DNA of 64,000 nucleotides from Adhaeribacter soli (GTDB taxonomy: Bacteria > Bacteroidota > Bacteroidia > Cytophagales > Hymenobacteraceae): NCBI RefSeq assembly GCF_008727925.1, contig NZ_VTWT01000002.1, positions 372,001-436,000 of the forward strand. Direction: 5' to 3'. The notes under the pieces are model-generated. The model saw only the letters and a list, made by a program, of their open reading frames with translations. It made no database searches and had not been told where the DNA came from. Each line of letters begins with the position of its first letter. Position 1 is the stretch's first letter. A program made the translations under genes and the position numbers. Shown here piece after piece: positions 27,966 to 51,580 of this stretch.

Positions 27966-28110
27966 TTTACCCCCTACCATTCCTACCCACACAAACTTTC
28001 CTACAACATTATTTGAAAAATATTAAATAAATTCTGTTATTCAGGCAACGGATTGTGGTCTTATGCACGTCTTCCGTTTACAAACCGCTCCCACTCTACG
28101 AAATTGTTGC

Positions 28111-30204
28111 ATGAAAACTCCGGCGCCTGTTTACCTGCTTTTTTTCTTCTGTTATTTCATTGGTTTTGCGGCAAAAGCCCAGAAGGAAGCCAGTTACTGG
28201 TATTTCGGCAATAAAGCGGGCCTCTACTTCACTTCTAGTAACCAGACCCTCCTACGCGACAACGGCAAAATGAAAGCGCTCGAAGGCTGCGCCACCATTT
28301 CCGACAGCCTGGGCAACCTGCTTTTTTATACCGCCGGCGATACTGTTTTCAATAAATCCCACGTAAAAATGTCGAATGGCTGGCTCCTTACCGGCCACCA
28401 ATCGGCCTCACAATCTTCGGTAATTGTGCAGGAACCGTACAGCACTTCCCGGTACTATCTTTTCACGGTAGATGCTTTAGGCGGCGGCAACGGCCTGCGC
28501 TACTCCATTGTAGATGCCGATGCTGTAGGAAACGTGGTAGCTAAAAATATTCCGCTGCAAAGTCCCGTTTCCGAAAAAATTACGGCCGTAGATCACCGCT
28601 ATACCCGCGATGCCTGGGTTATTGTGCATGGCTCCGGTTCGCAGAACGACAACTTTTACGCTTACCGGGTAACCAAACCCCAGCAACCGGGCGCTTCGGC
28701 GATCCGGCCGCCGGTAATAAGCCGGGTTGGCATTTCCCACGCCGGCAGTTTCCCGAATAACAAGACCATCGGCTGCATGAAAGCCTCTCCGGACGGCCGG
28801 AAACTGGCGCTTGCCATGCAGGATTCGAGCCTGATAGAAATTTATGACTTTAACGATTCATCGGGAGTGGTTTCCAACCCGGTCCGGCTCCGCAAACTTC
28901 CCGGCGCTTACGGAATAGAATTCTCCCGCGACGGCAGCAAGCTCTACGTAAGCACCCAGGGCGAAACGCAGGAAATCCTGCAATTCAACCTGCAGGCCGG
29001 GAAAGGGCATCCGGACTCGATCAGGCTTTCGATGCAAGGGATTCTGATTACGCGCTCTTTGTTTGCAGCAAGTTTACAACTCGGAATAGACGGCAAGATC
29101 TACGTGGCCAATACCGATGCCGATGCTAAAGACCGTCAATACCTGGGCGTGATCAACGCACCCGACAGCCTGGGTAGCAAATCGAAACCCCTTCTCAACT
29201 CCCTGAAATTGAACGCTAATACCCATACGCCCGTGCGCTTTAGCGAGCAGGGCCTGCCTAACTTTAACCAAAGCTATTTGTGGCTTCCGGCATTTAAATT
29301 CAAATACCGCTGCATCGGCGACCTTACCCAGTTTTCCTCCATCATCAACCGCCAGATAAAAGGCATCCGTTGGGATTTCGGCGATCCGGACAGCGGCCCG
29401 GACAACACTTCCTCCCAGGACAACCCCACCCATAAGTTCACCAAGCCCAACACCTATAATGTAACCTTAACGGTAACTTTGCTCAATAACCGCACCCGCA
29501 GCCTCACCATTCCGGTTACTATTGCCCCCTTGCCTAATGTATTCCTTGGCATGGACCAGTGGATTTGCCCTACAGGCGAAATCAAGCTTAAAGGTCCGGA
29601 AGAGATGGCGCGCTACCAATGGAGCAACGGGAGTTCCGCCCAGGAAATTAAAGTAACCAAACCCGGTATTTACTGGCTGGAAGTCGAGAACGAAAACGGC
29701 TGCAAAAACCGCGATTCCGTTAACATTTTACCGAAACCGGGTCCGGTTATTTTTCAGCAGAAGCTGCTGGAAACCTGTGCGTTTGTGCCGCTTAAGCTCC
29801 GCACCAGTTACCGCAGCAGTACCTACAAATGGGGAGATGGCAGCACTGACTCTACCTTATGGGCAAACCGCGAAGGCTGGTATAAAGTTACCGTACCTTA
29901 TGATGGCTGCAAATTTACCGATTCGGTGCAGGTGGTATTTAAAGAATGCCCTGAACTCCTGGTTCTGCCTAACATAATAACCCCCAACAACGACGGACAG
30001 AACGACAAGCTCATGCTGCGCGGCATCATATCGGAAGGCTGGCAGCTCCAGATCTTCAACCGCTGGGGAACCCCGATCTTCGAAGATAAAAATTACCGGA
30101 ATACCTGGCCGGAGAAAGCTCCGGCTGCCGGCATCTACTACTACCTTTTAAGAAAACCGGAAGCTGGTATCAGCCGCAAAGGCTGGATCGAGGTGGTTCA
30201 TTAA
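28111..30204 (+). CDS. T9SS type B sorted surface protein, tandem copy 1
   Basis: I set the start at the ATG at 28111 (697 residues), which gives a signal peptide ending AKA|QKE. The N-terminal half is a propeller-like domain with the phrases YWYFGNKAGLYF, EGCATISDSLGNLLFYT and GIEFSRDGSKLYVS, frequent in Bacteroidota cargo proteins. A PKD-like domain follows (IRWDFGDPDSGP, TFTKPNTYNVTLT-like), then two Ig-like segments. The C-terminal type B sorting domain (LPNIITPNNDGQND, LQIFNRWGTPIFED, AGIYYYLL, GWIEVVH) marks it for type IX secretion. It lies 28 bases before a paralogue on the same strand. It is probably an adhesin or other surface structure. Confidence 0.9.
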   Translation: MKTPAPVYLLFFFCYFIGFAAKAQKEASYWYFGNKAGLYFTSSNQTLLRDNGKMKALEGCATISDSLGNLLFYTAGDTVFNKSHVKMSNGWLLTGHQSASQSSVIVQEPYSTSRYYLFTVDALGGGNGLRYSIVDADAVGNVVAKNIPLQSPVSEKITAVDHRYTRDAWVIVHGSGSQNDNFYAYRVTKPQQPGASAIRPPVISRVGISHAGSFPNNKTIGCMKASPDGRKLALAMQDSSLIEIYDFNDSSGVVSNPVRLRKLPGAYGIEFSRDGSKLYVSTQGETQEILQFNLQAGKGHPDSIRLSMQGILITRSLFAASLQLGIDGKIYVANTDADAKDRQYLGVINAPDSLGSKSKPLLNSLKLNANTHTPVRFSEQGLPNFNQSYLWLPAFKFKYRCIGDLTQFSSIINRQIKGIRWDFGDPDSGPDNTSSQDNPTHKFTKPNTYNVTLTVTLLNNRTRSLTIPVTIAPLPNVFLGMDQWICPTGEIKLKGPEEMARYQWSNGSSAQEIKVTKPGIYWLEVENENGCKNRDSVNILPKPGPVIFQQKLLETCAFVPLKLRTSYRSSTYKWGDGSTDSTLWANREGWYKVTVPYDGCKFTDSVQVVFKECPELLVLPNIITPNNDGQNDKLMLRGIISEGWQLQIFNRWGTPIFEDKNYRNTWPEKAPAAGIYYYLLRKPEAGISRKGWIEVVH

Positions 30205-30232: not shown

Positions 30233-32512
30233 ATGAAACAGCTATATTATATTTTAATGCTGTGCTGCTCCGCTTCCATGGCCCTGGCGCAGGGCGAAGC
30301 AAATAACTGGCATTTCGGCAACCAGGCTTCCTTCGAATTCAGTGGCACGGGCTCCCCGGTGAGTACTTTTACCAGCGCCATGACCAACGCCGAAGAAGGC
30401 TGCGCCAGCATTTCGGATAAGAACGGGCAACTGCTTTTTTACACCAACGGCGAAACCATCTGGGACCGCAGCAACAACATCATGCTCAACGGCCATAGCC
30501 TGATGGGACACGTTTCTTCGACCCAATCGAGCCTTATTGTACCCAGACCCGGCAGCGACTCGCTCTATTACGTTTTCACCACCGATGCCGTACAGAATAA
30601 CCTGGCCAACGGGCTGCGCTACAGCGTAGTAGATATGGAAGCAAACTGGCCTTTGGGTGCAGTTGTTTCCGGGCAGAAGAATATAGCACTTTACGGCAGC
30701 GCCACCAAACCAGTCTCTGAAAAGCTGACTGCCGTTAAACACTTTAACAACCGCGATGTATGGGTAATTGTGCAGAGTTATGTCAGCCTTACCCAGCAGG
30801 AATTTATTGCCTTTCTGGTTACTTCTTCCGGTATTTCGGCTTCACCGGTTATCAGCGTATTACCGGCGGTGGCGGGCAGCCAGAACATCAAGACCGGGTA
30901 TCTTAAAGCCTCGCCCCTGGGAAATTACCTGGCCGGCAACTTTGGTTCCAACGGGTGCTATCTTTTCGATTTCGACAACAAAACCGGATCGGTATCTAAC
31001 CCGCTGCAGCTTACCAACCCAAGTCCCCGTCCCTATTACGGCCTTGAATTTTCGCCGGATGAGTCTAAACTTTACACCAACGATTCCTGGCTAATCCAGC
31101 AATTTAATCTTAATAGTGGTAATCCGGCATCAATTCTGGCTTCCAGAACCAGCCTGAACCCCATGAGCAATTACGGTGCCATGCAGCTGGCCCCTAACGG
31201 GAAAATATACATTGCCCGGCCCGGCCAGAACGCTTTGGCCGAGATATCCCAACCCAATGCGCCCGGCCCTTCCTGTAATTTAACGATGTTCGGCCCAAAC
31301 CTCGTGTTGCCCAGCAACAGTTTCGAAGGGTTGCCTAATTTCATTACCGGTTATTTTAATCCGCCCCGCTTCGAATATATTGGGAACTGTGCCGGAAACC
31401 CTTTGTATTTCAGCATACCATTGTCATTTGGCATCGATTCGGCAACCTGGAACTTTGGCGATACCGGCAGCGGGGCCCAGAATTTTGCCAGGGGTTTGAG
31501 CCCTAACCATGTATTCAGAAATCCGGGTAACTTTACGGTACTGCTAACGATATTCCGGCAAGGCCAGCCTGCTTATTATCAGCAACAGGTAGTAGTCCGG
31601 AACAAGCCGCAGGTGCAGCTGGATTCCGATATTGTAGCCTGCGCCGGCGACAGCATAAGCCTTAAAAATCATTTCCCCCGCAGCCAGTTCAACGAACGGT
31701 ATTTATGGAGCACCGGCGAAACCGGCTTTGCCATTTCCCCAACCGTTTCCGGCATTTACTGGCTCGAATTAACCAATGGTTTCTGCACCACCCGCGATTC
31801 GATAAAAGTTACGTTCCGCCCCTTGCCGCAGGTTAGCCTGGGCGCCAGCCAGATCCTTTGCGATGTGGCTACCGTTACCCTGGATGCCAAGAACCCGGGC
31901 TGTACGTATTACTGGCACCCCGGGAAAGAAACAACCCAAACCATTACGGTAACCAAGTCAGGCAGATACACTGTGTACGTAACCTCCCCGGATGGCTGCA
32001 CCAATATGGATTTCATTGATATTACAATGATTACTTCGCCGCGGGTGGAATTAGGGGATGACATTGTGGTTTGTGAAGGCGAACCTGTTACTCTGCGCGC
32101 CACGGATCCAGGCAGTGGCAGAAGCGTTTTATGGAGCGATGGCTCCCGGTTTTTATCACTCCAACCTACTAAAAGCGGAAAATACTGGGTGCAGGTTACC
32201 CACAGCATCTGTACCATCAGCGACACCATTAACGTAACCTTCAAATCTTGTCCGCCGCCGCCGGTGCCGGTAATTCCCAATATCATTACCCCCAACGGCG
32301 ACGAGAAAAATGACAAACTGGTGCTGAAAGAAATCCCGGAAGGCGTATGGCACCTGAAACTGTTTAACCGCTGGGGCCAGCTTTTATTCGATGAGAAAGG
32401 CTACCGCAACGACTGGCCGAAAGATAAGATCAGCGATGGTACTTATTATTATTTACTCGAAGACCCGGAAACCAAGCGCACCTTTAAAGGCTGGGTGGAA
32501 GTGGTACATTAA
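30233..32512 (+). CDS. T9SS type B sorted surface protein, tandem copy 2
   Basis: The 759-residue paralogue of the preceding gene has a signal peptide ending ALA|QGE. The order is the same: a propeller-like region (NNWHFGNQASFEF, EEGCASISDKNGQLLFYT, GLEFSPDESKLYT), a PKD-like segment (ATWNFGDTGSGAQN), three Ig-like repeats starting with LDSDIVACAGDS, LGASQILCDV and LGDDIVVCEGEP, and a type B sorting domain (VIPNIITPNGDEKND, LKLFNRWGQLLFDE, GTYYYLLE, GWVEVVH). The 28-base spacing suggests co-transcription. The extra Ig-like unit compared with copy 1 suggests that repeat number varies between family members. Confidence 0.9.
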   Translation: MKQLYYILMLCCSASMALAQGEANNWHFGNQASFEFSGTGSPVSTFTSAMTNAEEGCASISDKNGQLLFYTNGETIWDRSNNIMLNGHSLMGHVSSTQSSLIVPRPGSDSLYYVFTTDAVQNNLANGLRYSVVDMEANWPLGAVVSGQKNIALYGSATKPVSEKLTAVKHFNNRDVWVIVQSYVSLTQQEFIAFLVTSSGISASPVISVLPAVAGSQNIKTGYLKASPLGNYLAGNFGSNGCYLFDFDNKTGSVSNPLQLTNPSPRPYYGLEFSPDESKLYTNDSWLIQQFNLNSGNPASILASRTSLNPMSNYGAMQLAPNGKIYIARPGQNALAEISQPNAPGPSCNLTMFGPNLVLPSNSFEGLPNFITGYFNPPRFEYIGNCAGNPLYFSIPLSFGIDSATWNFGDTGSGAQNFARGLSPNHVFRNPGNFTVLLTIFRQGQPAYYQQQVVVRNKPQVQLDSDIVACAGDSISLKNHFPRSQFNERYLWSTGETGFAISPTVSGIYWLELTNGFCTTRDSIKVTFRPLPQVSLGASQILCDVATVTLDAKNPGCTYYWHPGKETTQTITVTKSGRYTVYVTSPDGCTNMDFIDITMITSPRVELGDDIVVCEGEPVTLRATDPGSGRSVLWSDGSRFLSLQPTKSGKYWVQVTHSICTISDTINVTFKSCPPPPVPVIPNIITPNGDEKNDKLVLKEIPEGVWHLKLFNRWGQLLFDEKGYRNDWPKDKISDGTYYYLLEDPETKRTFKGWVEVVH

Positions 32513-47385: not shown

Positions 47386-47880
47386 GAACGAGAAGAATGA
47401 GGAATGAAAAGCATTGTACTGCCCCGCAGAGCAAGCGGACAAAGTTACTAAAATTTGGGAATGGCAGCCGGTACCTTGGCCGGAAACTCATTTTTGCTGC
47501 TAATCCGGAATTTTCCTTTCGTTTAAGCTTCTTCTCCCCTAAAAAGCGGGGCCGCTTCATTCCACAATCAATTACTTTCCTGAATTACCTGAACCGTTGG
47601 TCGGGGGACAATGAACAAGGCTTCTTAAATAAAAAGAAATTTGAAGCGGCAGTCAGTTGGTGGTTCGCCCATGCCTGGTAAACAAAGGTCTATAAACTTC
47701 CTACTATGAAAGGCTTAGATCACAAACCTACCCCCTGAAAATCCGATACTGAAATAGCCAGTCTTCAGAGCAACTCTTCTTCTGGTGAGGTAAGCTTAGT
47801 TTCTGCAATAAATAACAAGTTGTTTATTGCTGTTCAGGAAAAAGGATTAATTTAGCAGTGTTATTTCTTATCTCACGCGC
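47386..47880. other. 495-base spacer, no gene recognised
   Basis: It lies between divergent genes and must hold both promoters. A hairpin GCAATAAATAAC / GTTGTTTATTGC is at 47804-47830, about 50 bases before the T9SS gene. No coding frame or dispersed repeat stands out. Confidence 0.45.
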
Positions 47881-50829
47881 ATGAAAACAGCTTTACTTCC
47901 CAGGCATATTTCAAAATACCTGCTACTTCTAATCTGCAATTTAAGCTTGTTCAGCTTTCCAACCCAAGCCCAGAAAGAAGCTAATAACTGGTTTTTTGGT
48001 GCTGGTGCCGGCATAAACTTCAATTATAATCCTCCTCGCGCTGTGTATGGTGGCCAAACAACTCACGGTTTAGGTAATGCATCCATGTCTGATGCCAATG
48101 GAAATCTTCTTTTTTATACAGGGTACAATTATGTACTACCAGGCTCAAGCGGAGCTTTTATCTGGAATAAGAATCATCAGCCAATGGCTAATAGTATAGG
48201 TTATCATCAAACATGGAATAACACATTGATATTTCCATGGCCTGCTCAACCATCAAAATACTTTGTTTTTGACAGTCATGCATTTTCAAGTCCGGGAAAT
48301 AAAAATTATTCGGTCATTGACATGAGCTTAAACAATGGTTTAGGTGGTGTAACTTCTTTAAATATTCCTTTTGCAAATTTTGCAGGTTCAGATTTTATAG
48401 GTGCCCAGCATCGAAATAACCGTGACTTCTGGTTAATAAATCAGCTTGATTCCGTACATATCTTTGAAGCTCATCTTATTTCACCTGCCGGGCTAAATGT
48501 AATACCAGTAGTCAGTCGTATACCTGCTTTGGCCAGAACTTCTATCGATATGCGATTAAAAGTTTCTCCTGATGGCAAAACAATCGCTTTCACAGATTAT
48601 AATTCACCTAATAACGGCATCCAGCTTTTAAATTTTGATGCTTCAACAGGAATTGTAACAGATAAAGGCAATTTGCCTTCTAACCGGGGATTATCTACAA
48701 TTGAATTCTCCCCGGATGGAACAAAGTTATACTGCATTCGGGAAAATAGTGGGCTTACAGGTCCAGCCAGATTTCCGGATCTTTTGCAGTTTGATCTGGA
48801 AGCGGGAACAATAACCGATATCGCTAACAGTGCAGTAGTCATACACCACTTCGCATATTTGAATGTGCCTGGTTACATGCAAGTAGGACCGGATGGCAAA
48901 ATATACATGACAACAAACCAGCAAGGCTTTTTAAATGTTATTAACCGCCCAAATCTAAAGGGCCTAGCTTGCCGCTTCATTTTAAATGGTTTTAACCTCA
49001 ATCCATTAAATATTGGTAATATTCAAAGCGGCTTCTTTCTTCCCACCTTCATCCAAAGCTACTTTTACCGGCCGAAAATCGACCTGCAACAAACCTGCTT
49101 CGGCGACACGGCCCGCTTCCAGCTCAGCAACAATGCCTACGTAGATTCGGTGCGCTGGGACTTCGGCGATCCGGCTTCCGGGGCTTTGAATAAGAGCACG
49201 GCTTTTAACCCGAAACACTTCTACGCCACGCCCGGCCCTAAGCAGGTACAGGCCATTGTGCACTTCAACTTCACTTCCGATACGCTTAACCAGACCATCT
49301 ACATTCCGGTTAGTATTACCAAGCCCAACCTGGGTCCTGACCGCGGCCTCTGCCCCGGCGATACGCTGCTTTTGCGTGCTTTCCAGTCCGGAGCTACCTA
49401 CGAGTGGCAGGATTCTATCAATACCGATTCGGTTTACGTGGTTACAAAGCCCGGCACGTATTGGGTACAGGTAAGCAACGGTTGCGGCGTGCGTACTGAT
49501 TCGGTTACTATCACCTTCGATCAGCCGCTGAGTTTAAGTCTGGGAGCAGATACCTTACTTTGCCCCGGAGAGCAACTGCAGCTGCAGGTAAATGCCAACG
49601 GCGCTGCCGTGCTCTGGTCCGATTCCACTACCGGAAACAGCATTACCGTTACTCAACCCGGAACGTATTGGGCCCAGCTCAGCAATGCCTGCGGCTCCTG
49701 GCGCGATTCCATTAACGTCAGCTACCGGCCTGTTCCTGCTGCTACCTGGTTGCCTAACGATCTTACCCTCTGCAAACAGACGCAATACACCATTAACGGC
49801 ACTCATCCCGATGCGGTCAGCTACAAATGGCAGGACGGCAGCACTTTATCTTCCTTTACAGCTACCGTTTCCGGCACCTACTGGCTCGAAGTTACCACAG
49901 CCTGCACTACCGTTAGAGATTCTATAAACCTGACGCTCATTCCTACTCCGCCTATAAACTTAGGAGCAGATACGCTGCTCTGCCCCGGTGAACAGTTGCA
50001 GTTGCAGGTAAGCACCCGCGGCGGCAATATTCGCTGGCAGGATGGCAGCACCGATACGGTCTTTACCGTTACCAAAGCCGGTACGTACTGGGCTGAAATA
50101 AGCAACAGTTGCGGTAGCTGGCGGGATTCGGTTACGGTATATTTTAGAAGTCCTTCCATTACCAAATGGCTACCTAAAGACACGATCCTCTGCTTGCAAA
50201 GCAGGTTTGTGATAAACGGACAGCATCCGGATGCGATTAGCTATAAGTGGCAGGATGGCAGCAGCAATGTTGTTTTTGAAGCCAGATCTTCCGGTATTTA
50301 CTGGGTAGATGTAACTACAGCCTGCGCAACCCTCCGCGATTCGGTGCAGATCACGCTCCTTCCCCTTCCTGCCAGGCTCCTGCCAGCCGATACCCTGCTT
50401 TGCTCCGGCGAAAGCATTCAGTTAAAAGCTCCGCAAGGAAAGAGCTACAAGTGGAGCAACGGCCAGACTTCCCAAACCATCACCGTCAGCCAGCCGGGAA
50501 CCTACAAAGTAAACGTAGGAATGGGTGAGAATTGCTTCTACACCGGTTCGGTAAATGTAAAAGAAGAACGCTGCTACTGCACTGCTTTCATTCCTAACCT
50601 CATCACGCCCAACAACGACAATCAAAACGACCGCTTCGAACCCAAAGGACTGGAACCCGGAACCTGGCAGCTGGAGATCTATAACCGCTGGGGAAGCCGC
50701 ATCTACCAGAATAGCAACTACACAAACCAGTGGCCGGAACAGGATATTCCTGCGGCTACCTACTACTACCTGCTCCGAAACAAAGAATCCGGAAAAACTT
50801 ACAATGGCTGGATCGAGGTGGTGAAGTAA
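47881..50829 (+). CDS. Large T9SS type B surface protein with tandem Ig-like repeats
   Basis: The 982-residue product has a signal peptide ending TQA|QKE and the same N-terminal propeller-like region as the 28-32 kb pair (NNWFFGAGAGINFNY, TIEFSPDGTKLYC). A PKD-like domain follows (VRWDFGDPASGAL, about 415-470). Then come Ig-like modules, of which a pair is tandemly duplicated with a 420-base period (LGADTLLCPGEQLQLQV twice, starts near 49541 and 49961). The C-terminal type B sorting domain reads FIPNLITPNNDNQND, LEIYNRWGSRIYQN, GWIEVVK. Up to about 49,030 the DNA is A+T-rich (one line counts 32 percent G+C); afterwards it is near 60 percent. This suggests an imported passenger joined to a resident 3' half. 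Confidence 0.9.
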   Translation: MKTALLPRHISKYLLLLICNLSLFSFPTQAQKEANNWFFGAGAGINFNYNPPRAVYGGQTTHGLGNASMSDANGNLLFYTGYNYVLPGSSGAFIWNKNHQPMANSIGYHQTWNNTLIFPWPAQPSKYFVFDSHAFSSPGNKNYSVIDMSLNNGLGGVTSLNIPFANFAGSDFIGAQHRNNRDFWLINQLDSVHIFEAHLISPAGLNVIPVVSRIPALARTSIDMRLKVSPDGKTIAFTDYNSPNNGIQLLNFDASTGIVTDKGNLPSNRGLSTIEFSPDGTKLYCIRENSGLTGPARFPDLLQFDLEAGTITDIANSAVVIHHFAYLNVPGYMQVGPDGKIYMTTNQQGFLNVINRPNLKGLACRFILNGFNLNPLNIGNIQSGFFLPTFIQSYFYRPKIDLQQTCFGDTARFQLSNNAYVDSVRWDFGDPASGALNKSTAFNPKHFYATPGPKQVQAIVHFNFTSDTLNQTIYIPVSITKPNLGPDRGLCPGDTLLLRAFQSGATYEWQDSINTDSVYVVTKPGTYWVQVSNGCGVRTDSVTITFDQPLSLSLGADTLLCPGEQLQLQVNANGAAVLWSDSTTGNSITVTQPGTYWAQLSNACGSWRDSINVSYRPVPAATWLPNDLTLCKQTQYTINGTHPDAVSYKWQDGSTLSSFTATVSGTYWLEVTTACTTVRDSINLTLIPTPPINLGADTLLCPGEQLQLQVSTRGGNIRWQDGSTDTVFTVTKAGTYWAEISNSCGSWRDSVTVYFRSPSITKWLPKDTILCLQSRFVINGQHPDAISYKWQDGSSNVVFEARSSGIYWVDVTTACATLRDSVQITLLPLPARLLPADTLLCSGESIQLKAPQGKSYKWSNGQTSQTITVSQPGTYKVNVGMGENCFYTGSVNVKEERCYCTAFIPNLITPNNDNQNDRFEPKGLEPGTWQLEIYNRWGSRIYQNSNYTNQWPEQDIPAATYYYLLRNKESGKTYNGWIEVVK

Positions 50830-50880
50830 GGCTGTTTTTTGCTACCGGAAGCTGTTGGATACCAGCCGTTACGCAAGCCG

Positions 50881-50922
50881 GATTGTCTGAACACGAAAGG
50901 ATTAATTAGATAGACAGGATTA
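50881..50922. repeat. Repeat family C, copy 2
   Basis: GATTGTCTGAACACGAAAGG and TAGATAGACAGGATTA match the family. With the inverted copy at 51483 it brackets a 560-base island of other repeats. Confidence 0.7.
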
Positions 50923-51080
50923 TATTTCGGGAAAGAATTAAAATCCAGGTACCAGGGGTAGTCAAAAAGGAAATTGCTAATAAAAGCTTGTGCAGGGTTT
51001 GCAATGAAAACTGTACAAGTTTTAGCAGGTTCGGCTATTTTAATACCAAAGCATATTTAGCAACTTCCCTTATTTGATAT

Positions 51081-51368
51081 AGTGCAAGCGGCTGCCTGTC
51101 CCATAACTTTTCTGGGAAAAACGATAATTATTGAAAAGCTGAAGTTGGTTATTGCATGTCCCCCTTTGTAGGGGGCAAGGGGGAGGATTTTACAGTATTT
51201 GTTTTTTATCAGGAATGCGTGAACCTCCCCCTCTCCCCCTCCGAAGGGGGACTTTATCCAATATGAGGGATTAAATGGTTGTTTCAGGAATGTTATGGGA
51301 CAGGATATGGCGTCCGCTTGTGCTTACATAATTACCTGGTCTGCTGTTAGAAAGCACAAGCGGACGCT
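51081..51368. repeat. Family G nested inverted repeats
   Basis: GCAAGCGG...CTGTCCCATAAC (51083-51107) is mirrored by GTTATGGGACAGG...CCGCTTGTGC (51292-51323), and GCGTCCGCTTGTGCTT is mirrored again by AAGCACAAGCGGACGC at 51353-51368. A family B element lies inside. Confidence 0.65.
51158..51254. repeat. Family B inverted-repeat element, copy 4
   Basis: GTCCCCCTTTGTAGGGGGCA and GGGGGAGG pair with CCTCCCCCTCTCCCCCTCCG and AAGGGGGACTTT. The centre contains TTTTTTATCAGGAATGCGTG, a phrase also seen near 9870. Confidence 0.75.
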
Positions 51369-51482
51369 TGCGCTATAACCTTCTGCCAAAATTTTAATCT
51401 TAAGGAATCCGGTATTTACGACTTAATATAACTTCCCTTCCTTTATTCCTCGCCGCGTCCGGGTAATTTTTAAGCGAAATAC

Positions 51483-51527
51483 AATCCTGTCTATCTTAAT
51501 AATCCTTAAAATCGTGTTCAGACAAAC
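51483..51527. repeat. Repeat family C, copy 3 (inverted)
   Basis: AATCCTGTCTATCTTAATAA and TCCTTAAAATCGTGTTCAGA are the inverse of the copies at 39461 and 63014. Confidence 0.75.
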
Positions 51528-51541
51528 AGGCTTTAAAAAGC

Positions 51542-51580
51542 AAAAACGCTATGCTTTTTACCTAAGAAGCATAGCGTTTC
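51542..51580 (-). terminator. Terminator after the mlaD-like gene
   Basis: AAACGCTATGCTT pairs with AAGCATAGCGTTT. On the minus strand a T run follows. Confidence 0.8.

Follow-up and report, generated by a model that had tools for sequence, protein, structure and literature searches.

Gene A occupies positions 47881..50829 (+) of the analysed window, a 64,000-nucleotide stretch of Adhaeribacter soli DNA. It is a single open frame of 982 codons whose ORF and domain matches mark it as the gene of a T9SS type B surface protein of 982 aa, in which a leader, a beta-propeller passenger, a PKD/Ig-like stalk and a CHU_C sorting domain follow one another. A putative signal peptide (47881..47973, +), judged by eye from the hydrophobic start, precedes the AT-rich passenger (47974..49047, +; GC3 about 0.31), whose profile match ends at codon 389; the export half, made up of stalk and sorting domain (49048..50829, +; GC3 0.62), was delimited by comparison with a second copy, B, in the same genome. 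Within the export half lie a PKD_4 domain at residues 403-474 (49087..49302, +; Pfam, 29.6 bits against a cut-off of 27) and a CHU_C / T9SS type B sorting domain at residues 904-980 (50590..50820, +), recognised by Pfam (CHU_C, 66.3 bits against 27) and, barely above its cut-off, by NCBIfam (TIGR04131, 36.7 against 35). Both models by which T9SS type B cargo is recognised thus match gene A above cut-off, and these matches suggest that the product is exported and surface-anchored through the T9SS.

Of the PD40 propeller repeat, Pfam finds only a trace in gene A (21.1 against 20.9). An AlphaFold model of the passenger, built from 65 sequences, is of good confidence and all-beta (pLDDT 87.4, pTM 0.89), and a Foldseek search with it returned 764 PDB matches at E<=0.001, headed by lactonase-like/YVTN propellers; because the TM-scores are about 0.5, the claim is limited to fold class, and the passenger is predicted to be a propeller of the lactonase/YVTN/WD40-like kind. 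The archaeal surface-layer protein PDB 1l0q, which carries a tandem YVTN propeller and PKD, matches the passenger by fold (rank 4) and by sequence profile (E 3e-15) and shares with gene A a surface architecture of propeller plus PKD, and is presumably not a T9SS protein. With an N-terminal beta-propeller head, an Ig/PKD-like stalk and a type B sorting tag, the gene A product would be adhesin-like, and the modelled head may serve in binding.

The first-pass annotation had drawn attention to a composition break inside this gene from hand counts of about 32 and 60 percent G+C in two single lines, and measurement bears the counts out (31.7% at 48301-48360 and 60.0% at 49141-49200). It had placed the change near 49,030, at the border of passenger and export half; the most probable change point lies at 49,027 by GC3 and at 49,068 by all bases, and together with a step in identity to copy B these points define a junction, PTFIQSYFYRPK, at 49042..49077 (+). 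Over the first 392 codons (47881-49056), G+C is 39.1%, GC3 31.6% and four-fold sites 27.5%, as compared to 53.0%, 62.0% and 61.9% over 49057-50826. Set against the host values (median GC3 0.594 in 242 ORFs of at least 200 aa, four-fold GC 66.3%, intergenic G+C 39.2%), the back half is therefore normal and the front half the odd one; because the break is strongest at synonymous sites, it is no by-product of amino-acid content. The log-likelihood ratio of the GC3 break is 47.4, where 500 codon shuffles gave at most 9.8, and it ranks first in a background of 352 ORFs of at least 100 aa from a 459-kb genome sample, the second and third (23.3 and 18.2) belonging to the same family. Smaller GC3 steps occur outside the propeller-passenger family too, the largest being 17.6 (a 192-aa ORF, L050) and 17.2 (L262 3188-5062). 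The latter gene, on contig C3, is type B cargo without the propeller-passenger family and has its step at codon 250, behind an AT-rich front of a different kind.

Discordant histories of heads and stalks

Copy B (L042 7789-10749) lies on contig C12, which is not the contig of gene A. A stop interrupts its frame at codon 11, in the putative signal peptide, the long frame being otherwise intact, so that B probably yields no secreted protein. The two export halves are 92.2% identical over 589 residues without a gap (88% at the nucleotide level) while the passengers are 46.0% identical, and nucleotide identity rises from about 0.54 to 0.88 at codon 388. Homology between the copies begins about 75 bp upstream of the start and ends at the stop codon. 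From nucleotide alignment and dS, the two have in common a 5' stretch of leader, signal peptide and first passenger codons (47807..48040, +), with about 73% nucleotide identity over codons 1-53. At synonymous sites, the leader has a dS of 0.27 (codons 1-45) and the export half one of 0.52, with the passenger between them saturated (pS 0.77); because protein selection cannot saturate synonymous sites in the middle of a gene only, the parts of the gene differ in age.

The same pattern is found in G001, the one further genome of this genus in the set of relatives searched, so that two species of the genus are compared here. Its copies X and Y are 94.0% identical in the export half and 46.2% in the passenger, with the step at the motif where A and B also break (LPxFIQSYF); the stalk dS is 0.21 and the heads are saturated (pS 0.79). 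Fast protein change alone is thus insufficient in either pair, given stalk dS values of 0.52 and 0.21 against saturated heads. Across the species, identity is 65-66% for export halves and 46-52% for passengers, with 52% between the A and X passengers.

Separate trees of the two halves, which the first-pass annotation had proposed as a check, differ. In the passenger tree, A joins X (98/97) and the positions of B and Y are not fixed; in the export-half tree, A joins B (100/99) and X joins Y (97/96). AU tests reject a common tree: the passenger data reject A+B (p 0.0128) and X+Y (p 0.0151), which are modest values, and the export-half data reject A+X (p 6.7e-76). The tested tree left out two L101 genes, L114 and two control genes of the window, which are placed elsewhere in a 127-row passenger tree; that larger tree was restricted to matches of 250 to 520 aa. 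Head and stalk are thus shown to have different histories, and history, synonymous divergence and composition all switch at one domain joint; the data support a recombination border that coincides with the composition break of gene A.

The first-pass annotation had explained the break by recombination of a foreign passenger onto a resident export end. Recombination at the border is upheld by the trees and the synonymous step; the foreign origin of the passenger is not, since A, B, X, Y and Z form a single genus-only clade (support 96 in the 127-row tree and 100/100 in the AU-tested tree). A recent transfer from outside the genus would account for an AT-rich head on a host-like stalk at a locus that the sister species lacks. 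However, the nearest relatives of the A passenger among the 127 rows are same-genus heads, X of G001 first, which are AT-rich too; no out-of-genus donor was found among those rows; and saturation of synonymous sites between the A and X passengers marks the head lineage as old. We therefore consider a recent foreign arrival improbable. From these comparisons, it is the export half, common within each genome, that appears to have been recently exchanged, the passenger belonging to an old, genus-restricted, AT-rich lineage, which is the reverse of the earlier proposal.

How the stalks of one genome came to be alike could be envisioned in a different way, in which the whole gene was duplicated in each species and the head cassette was then swapped, recombination taking place within the leader and stalk that the copies share and the stalk undergoing no conversion. 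In the A/B pair, leader and stalk flank a saturated head and homology runs on to the stop codon, as such a swap would have it, and the shared leader fits duplication with head replacement as well as it fits conversion. However, X and Y have no common leader (pS 0.75), and the tandem array at L043 6068-16762 (contig C10), composed of five passenger-family T9SS genes, also speaks against a swap: its homology tracts start at differing codons (390 to 447), and the likeness of one pair lies chiefly at the sorting end, which resembles conversion tracts. Array export halves are 70-91% and passengers 47-57% identical, and the two rankings do not agree; the GC breaks are weak (four-fold GC 0.40-0.51 in heads vs 0.50-0.57 in stalks). 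Nor were spare heads found: a six-frame profile search of 10 loci of the family for orphan or displaced heads recovered 17 known genes only. Replacement of heads is thus a possible but doubtful account, and gene conversion of the stalks is the one that we favour.

The passenger family numbers 11 genes in this genome and 10 in G001. A match was found in 47 of the 59 genomes searched; other genomes of the same taxonomic family carry 0 to 4 copies each, one of which is often a free-standing frame of about 370-440 aa. Two passengers of a genome with the same family code (G019) are identical to passengers of Hymenobacter jeollabukensis, in keeping with a placement of the present genome in Hymenobacteraceae. 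All 11 passenger matches of this genome are long frames of at least 647 aa, interrupted in copy B only, and among them there were no silent donor copies that might feed one expression site, as a silent-cassette system of antigenic variation would have.

Shared ends are not confined to this family. In a screen of 306 ORFs of at least 250 aa, seven pairs had at least 240 nt at 75% identity or more, three of them family pairs and the others involving L261, L051, L253 and L256/L257. No GC step comparable to that of gene A was found in the non-family pairs measured (log-likelihood ratio at most 9.7 in L261, L051 and L253); in L256 it is 13.8, with the opposite sign. At L051 7858-15582 (C9), tandem large surface-type genes have ends that are 76% and 79% alike in nucleotides, with a mismatch at about nt 560-1160, and at L261 4093-18998 (C8), adjacent giant ORFs are 90% identical over their last 1.36 kb, with unlike N-terminal parts and no GC3 step. 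As to the earlier suggestion of a general route to new surface proteins, the pattern is seen in both species and in two stalk families of the propeller-passenger family and was not shown beyond that family.

Genomic setting and the AT-richness of the heads

Gene A sits in a segment, 47462..51541 (no strand assigned), that is absent at the syntenic site of G001 as judged by blastn junctions: about 4.08 kb here corresponds to about 166 bp there, and the flanking order is conserved, with 14 window ORFs matched. A filled site in one species and a lacking one in the other is likewise seen for B, the array, X, Y, Z and an extra tandem copy (L044:4444); the array site in G001 is 248 bp without the array. 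At another site, G001 has one type B gene (L115 6398-10108), and this genome has two unrelated surface-type genes (L249 7059-13863, C12), one with a sub-threshold type A sorting match; the site is perhaps a surface-gene hotspot.

Downstream of gene A and still within the inserted segment, positions 50830-51541 hold intergenic repeats, parts of which (about 51149-51255 and 51483-51561) match many places in G001, and an inverted pair can be seen by eye at about 50885 and 51500. These are possible REP/MITE-like elements. A further dispersed repeat is present in both species: a stretch of 210-270 bp at L115 13427-13699 in G001 matches 13 places here at 75-87%.

Family genes that have stayed in place provide a control. 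Two lie in the window, at 28063..30204 (+; passenger GC3 0.603) and 30233..32512 (+; 0.615), each with a G001 positional ortholog by synteny; the three positional pairs are these two with L101 and L044:7119 with L116. Passenger GC3 is 0.496-0.615 in the 6 positional genes vs 0.297-0.441 in 12 non-positional ones (rank test p 0.0004, which is overstated because the copies are not independent), a comparison that covers 18 of the 21 genes and leaves out L114, L227 and L228. The passengers of the positional pairs are 59, 50 and 56% identical and the export halves 56, 49 and 61%. The halves being about equally diverged, genes that stay put have one history for both; and since their passengers have diverged like those of A and X yet are host-like, fast change alone does not give AT-richness.

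In other genera, passenger GC3 is mostly host-like as well (e.g., 0.82, 0.75, 0.84 and 0.72), so the fold does not demand AT. Outside the genus, a strong break close to the border was seen in just two of 26 family ORFs, in G039 and G049, so that a break shared by relatives, which the first-pass annotation would have counted against its reading along with like trees for the two halves, is present within the genus and missing from most other genera. That many genus members break at the same place might suggest that the break comes with the fold, with the 5' end or with amino-acid usage; however, the break sits at synonymous sites and same-fold heads are host-like in most other genera and in the positional orthologs, on which grounds we reject an intrinsic composition of the fold and find the broader explanation scarcely credible.

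For the composition alone, the main rival is a lack of GC-raising recombination in the heads: without any transfer, heads too diverse to recombine would drift to AT, escaping the GC-raising conversion or selection that acts on stalks. The intergenic G+C favours this, little-constrained DNA being AT-rich here; codon selection at the level of expression cannot produce the step, since one mRNA carries both halves; and the A and X heads, being saturated yet both AT-rich, are not simply unameliorated. However, the positional-ortholog heads are equally diverged and host-like, the four-fold GC of the gene A head lies below the intergenic G+C, and the stalks have changed with no W>S excess. At third positions of the export half, we counted 30 W>S and 34 S>W changes over 157 W and 230 S sites between A and B, and 9 W>S and 12 S>W between X and Y. 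The changes balance and give an equilibrium close to the host's, so the export half behaves as resident DNA does; a GC-biased conversion lifting the stalk above host level was not seen. Drift without transfer is thus unlikely to explain the AT-rich heads, though we hold it somewhat less remote than a recent foreign arrival.

Because the passengers of A and X are both AT-rich despite saturation, their AT-richness is an old condition that has been maintained, and not what one recent arrival left behind, and we infer an AT-rich passenger reservoir in the accessory pool. Bacterial accessory sequence is described as lower in GC than core sequence (PMC5303225, 2017, in the part of the text available); the contrast there is between genes, whereas here it lies inside one reading frame. 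Family members were found on 5 of 72,556 plasmid records, all Hymenobacteraceae plasmids and distant (identity 25-33%), so members of the family can travel on mobile DNA. For head and rest, GC3 is 0.374/0.410 in L276, 0.699/0.652 in L277, 0.681/0.656 in L279, 0.766/0.871 in L275 (a split frame) and 0.714/0.867 in L278 (with almost no rest); the AT-rich-head break is not clearly repeated in any of these five copies. Among 2.9 million viral contigs, 2 loci had a match.

Proposed stalk conversion, related systems and meaning

Taken as a whole, we consider it probable that these genes are accessory T9SS propeller adhesins whose stalks are homogenised within each genome by gene conversion and whose heads form a diverse pool. 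Homologous recombination of this kind would keep stalks alike among the copies of one genome because they are similar enough to recombine, and would leave heads unconverted because they are too different; the leader of the A/B pair may be kept alike likewise. Conversion as the process is suggested by the sequence comparisons, and no donor molecule or intermediate was seen in the two species of the genus compared. The heads would be old AT-rich lineages moving between loci and strains within the accessory gene pool, so that one half of the frame looks accessory and the other resident, and the likely use would be varied binding heads on one standard export stalk.

Decoupled constant and variable parts are known elsewhere. 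In the Rhs genes of Enterobacteriaceae, core and C-terminal tip are decoupled and have distinct GC signatures (Jackson et al. 2009, PMC2935791), and the available text of that paper attributes their variability to recombination in the constant part and an old pool of alternatives, citing Neisseria mafB alongside. As far as that text describes these systems, gene A is like them in having constant and variable parts with different trees and distinct GC; unlike them, its variable part is N-terminal, its constant part is a C-terminal T9SS stalk, its heads are homologous propellers, and no displaced tips or fragments were found at the 10 family loci. A Pfam and NCBIfam scan found no Rhs or MafB domain in gene A; with no shared domain, an N-terminal variable part and no displaced tips, gene A is not a member of either group. 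A parallel in export route is the T9SS cargo of Porphyromonas gingivalis (the gingipains Kgp and RgpA, and HagA), for which rearranged domains and allelic exchange are described alongside a C-terminal domain that is conserved (Dashper et al. 2017, PMC5266723, in the part of the text available). There, as here, T9SS proteins are diversified while the C-terminal domain is conserved; however, gene A has no gingipain or CAD domain (Pfam), and the variation described in P. gingivalis is among strains, whereas the variation seen here is spread over scattered accessory loci within a single genome, which have a long stalk in common. A literature search, to whose scope most subscription papers were external, did not find the pattern described for type B cargo.

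In two species independently, then, T9SS export stalks evolve in concert per genome and heads do not, and composition switches at the joint. A GC3 step at a domain joint combined with a filled and an empty site provides a simple mark for modular surface proteins, and positional orthologs in the same genomes provide internal controls for why accessory DNA is AT-rich. More tentatively, one could envision the T9SS stalk as a genome-wide homogenised landing platform, on which arriving propeller heads would receive the resident stalk by gene conversion, export compatibility would be maintained by recombination, and a genus-wide pool of AT-rich heads would diversify binding or recognition in bacteria that are apparently free-living. 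Our findings would extend T9SS cargo diversification, as the available text of PMC5266723 describes it, from an oral pathogen to Hymenobacteraceae.
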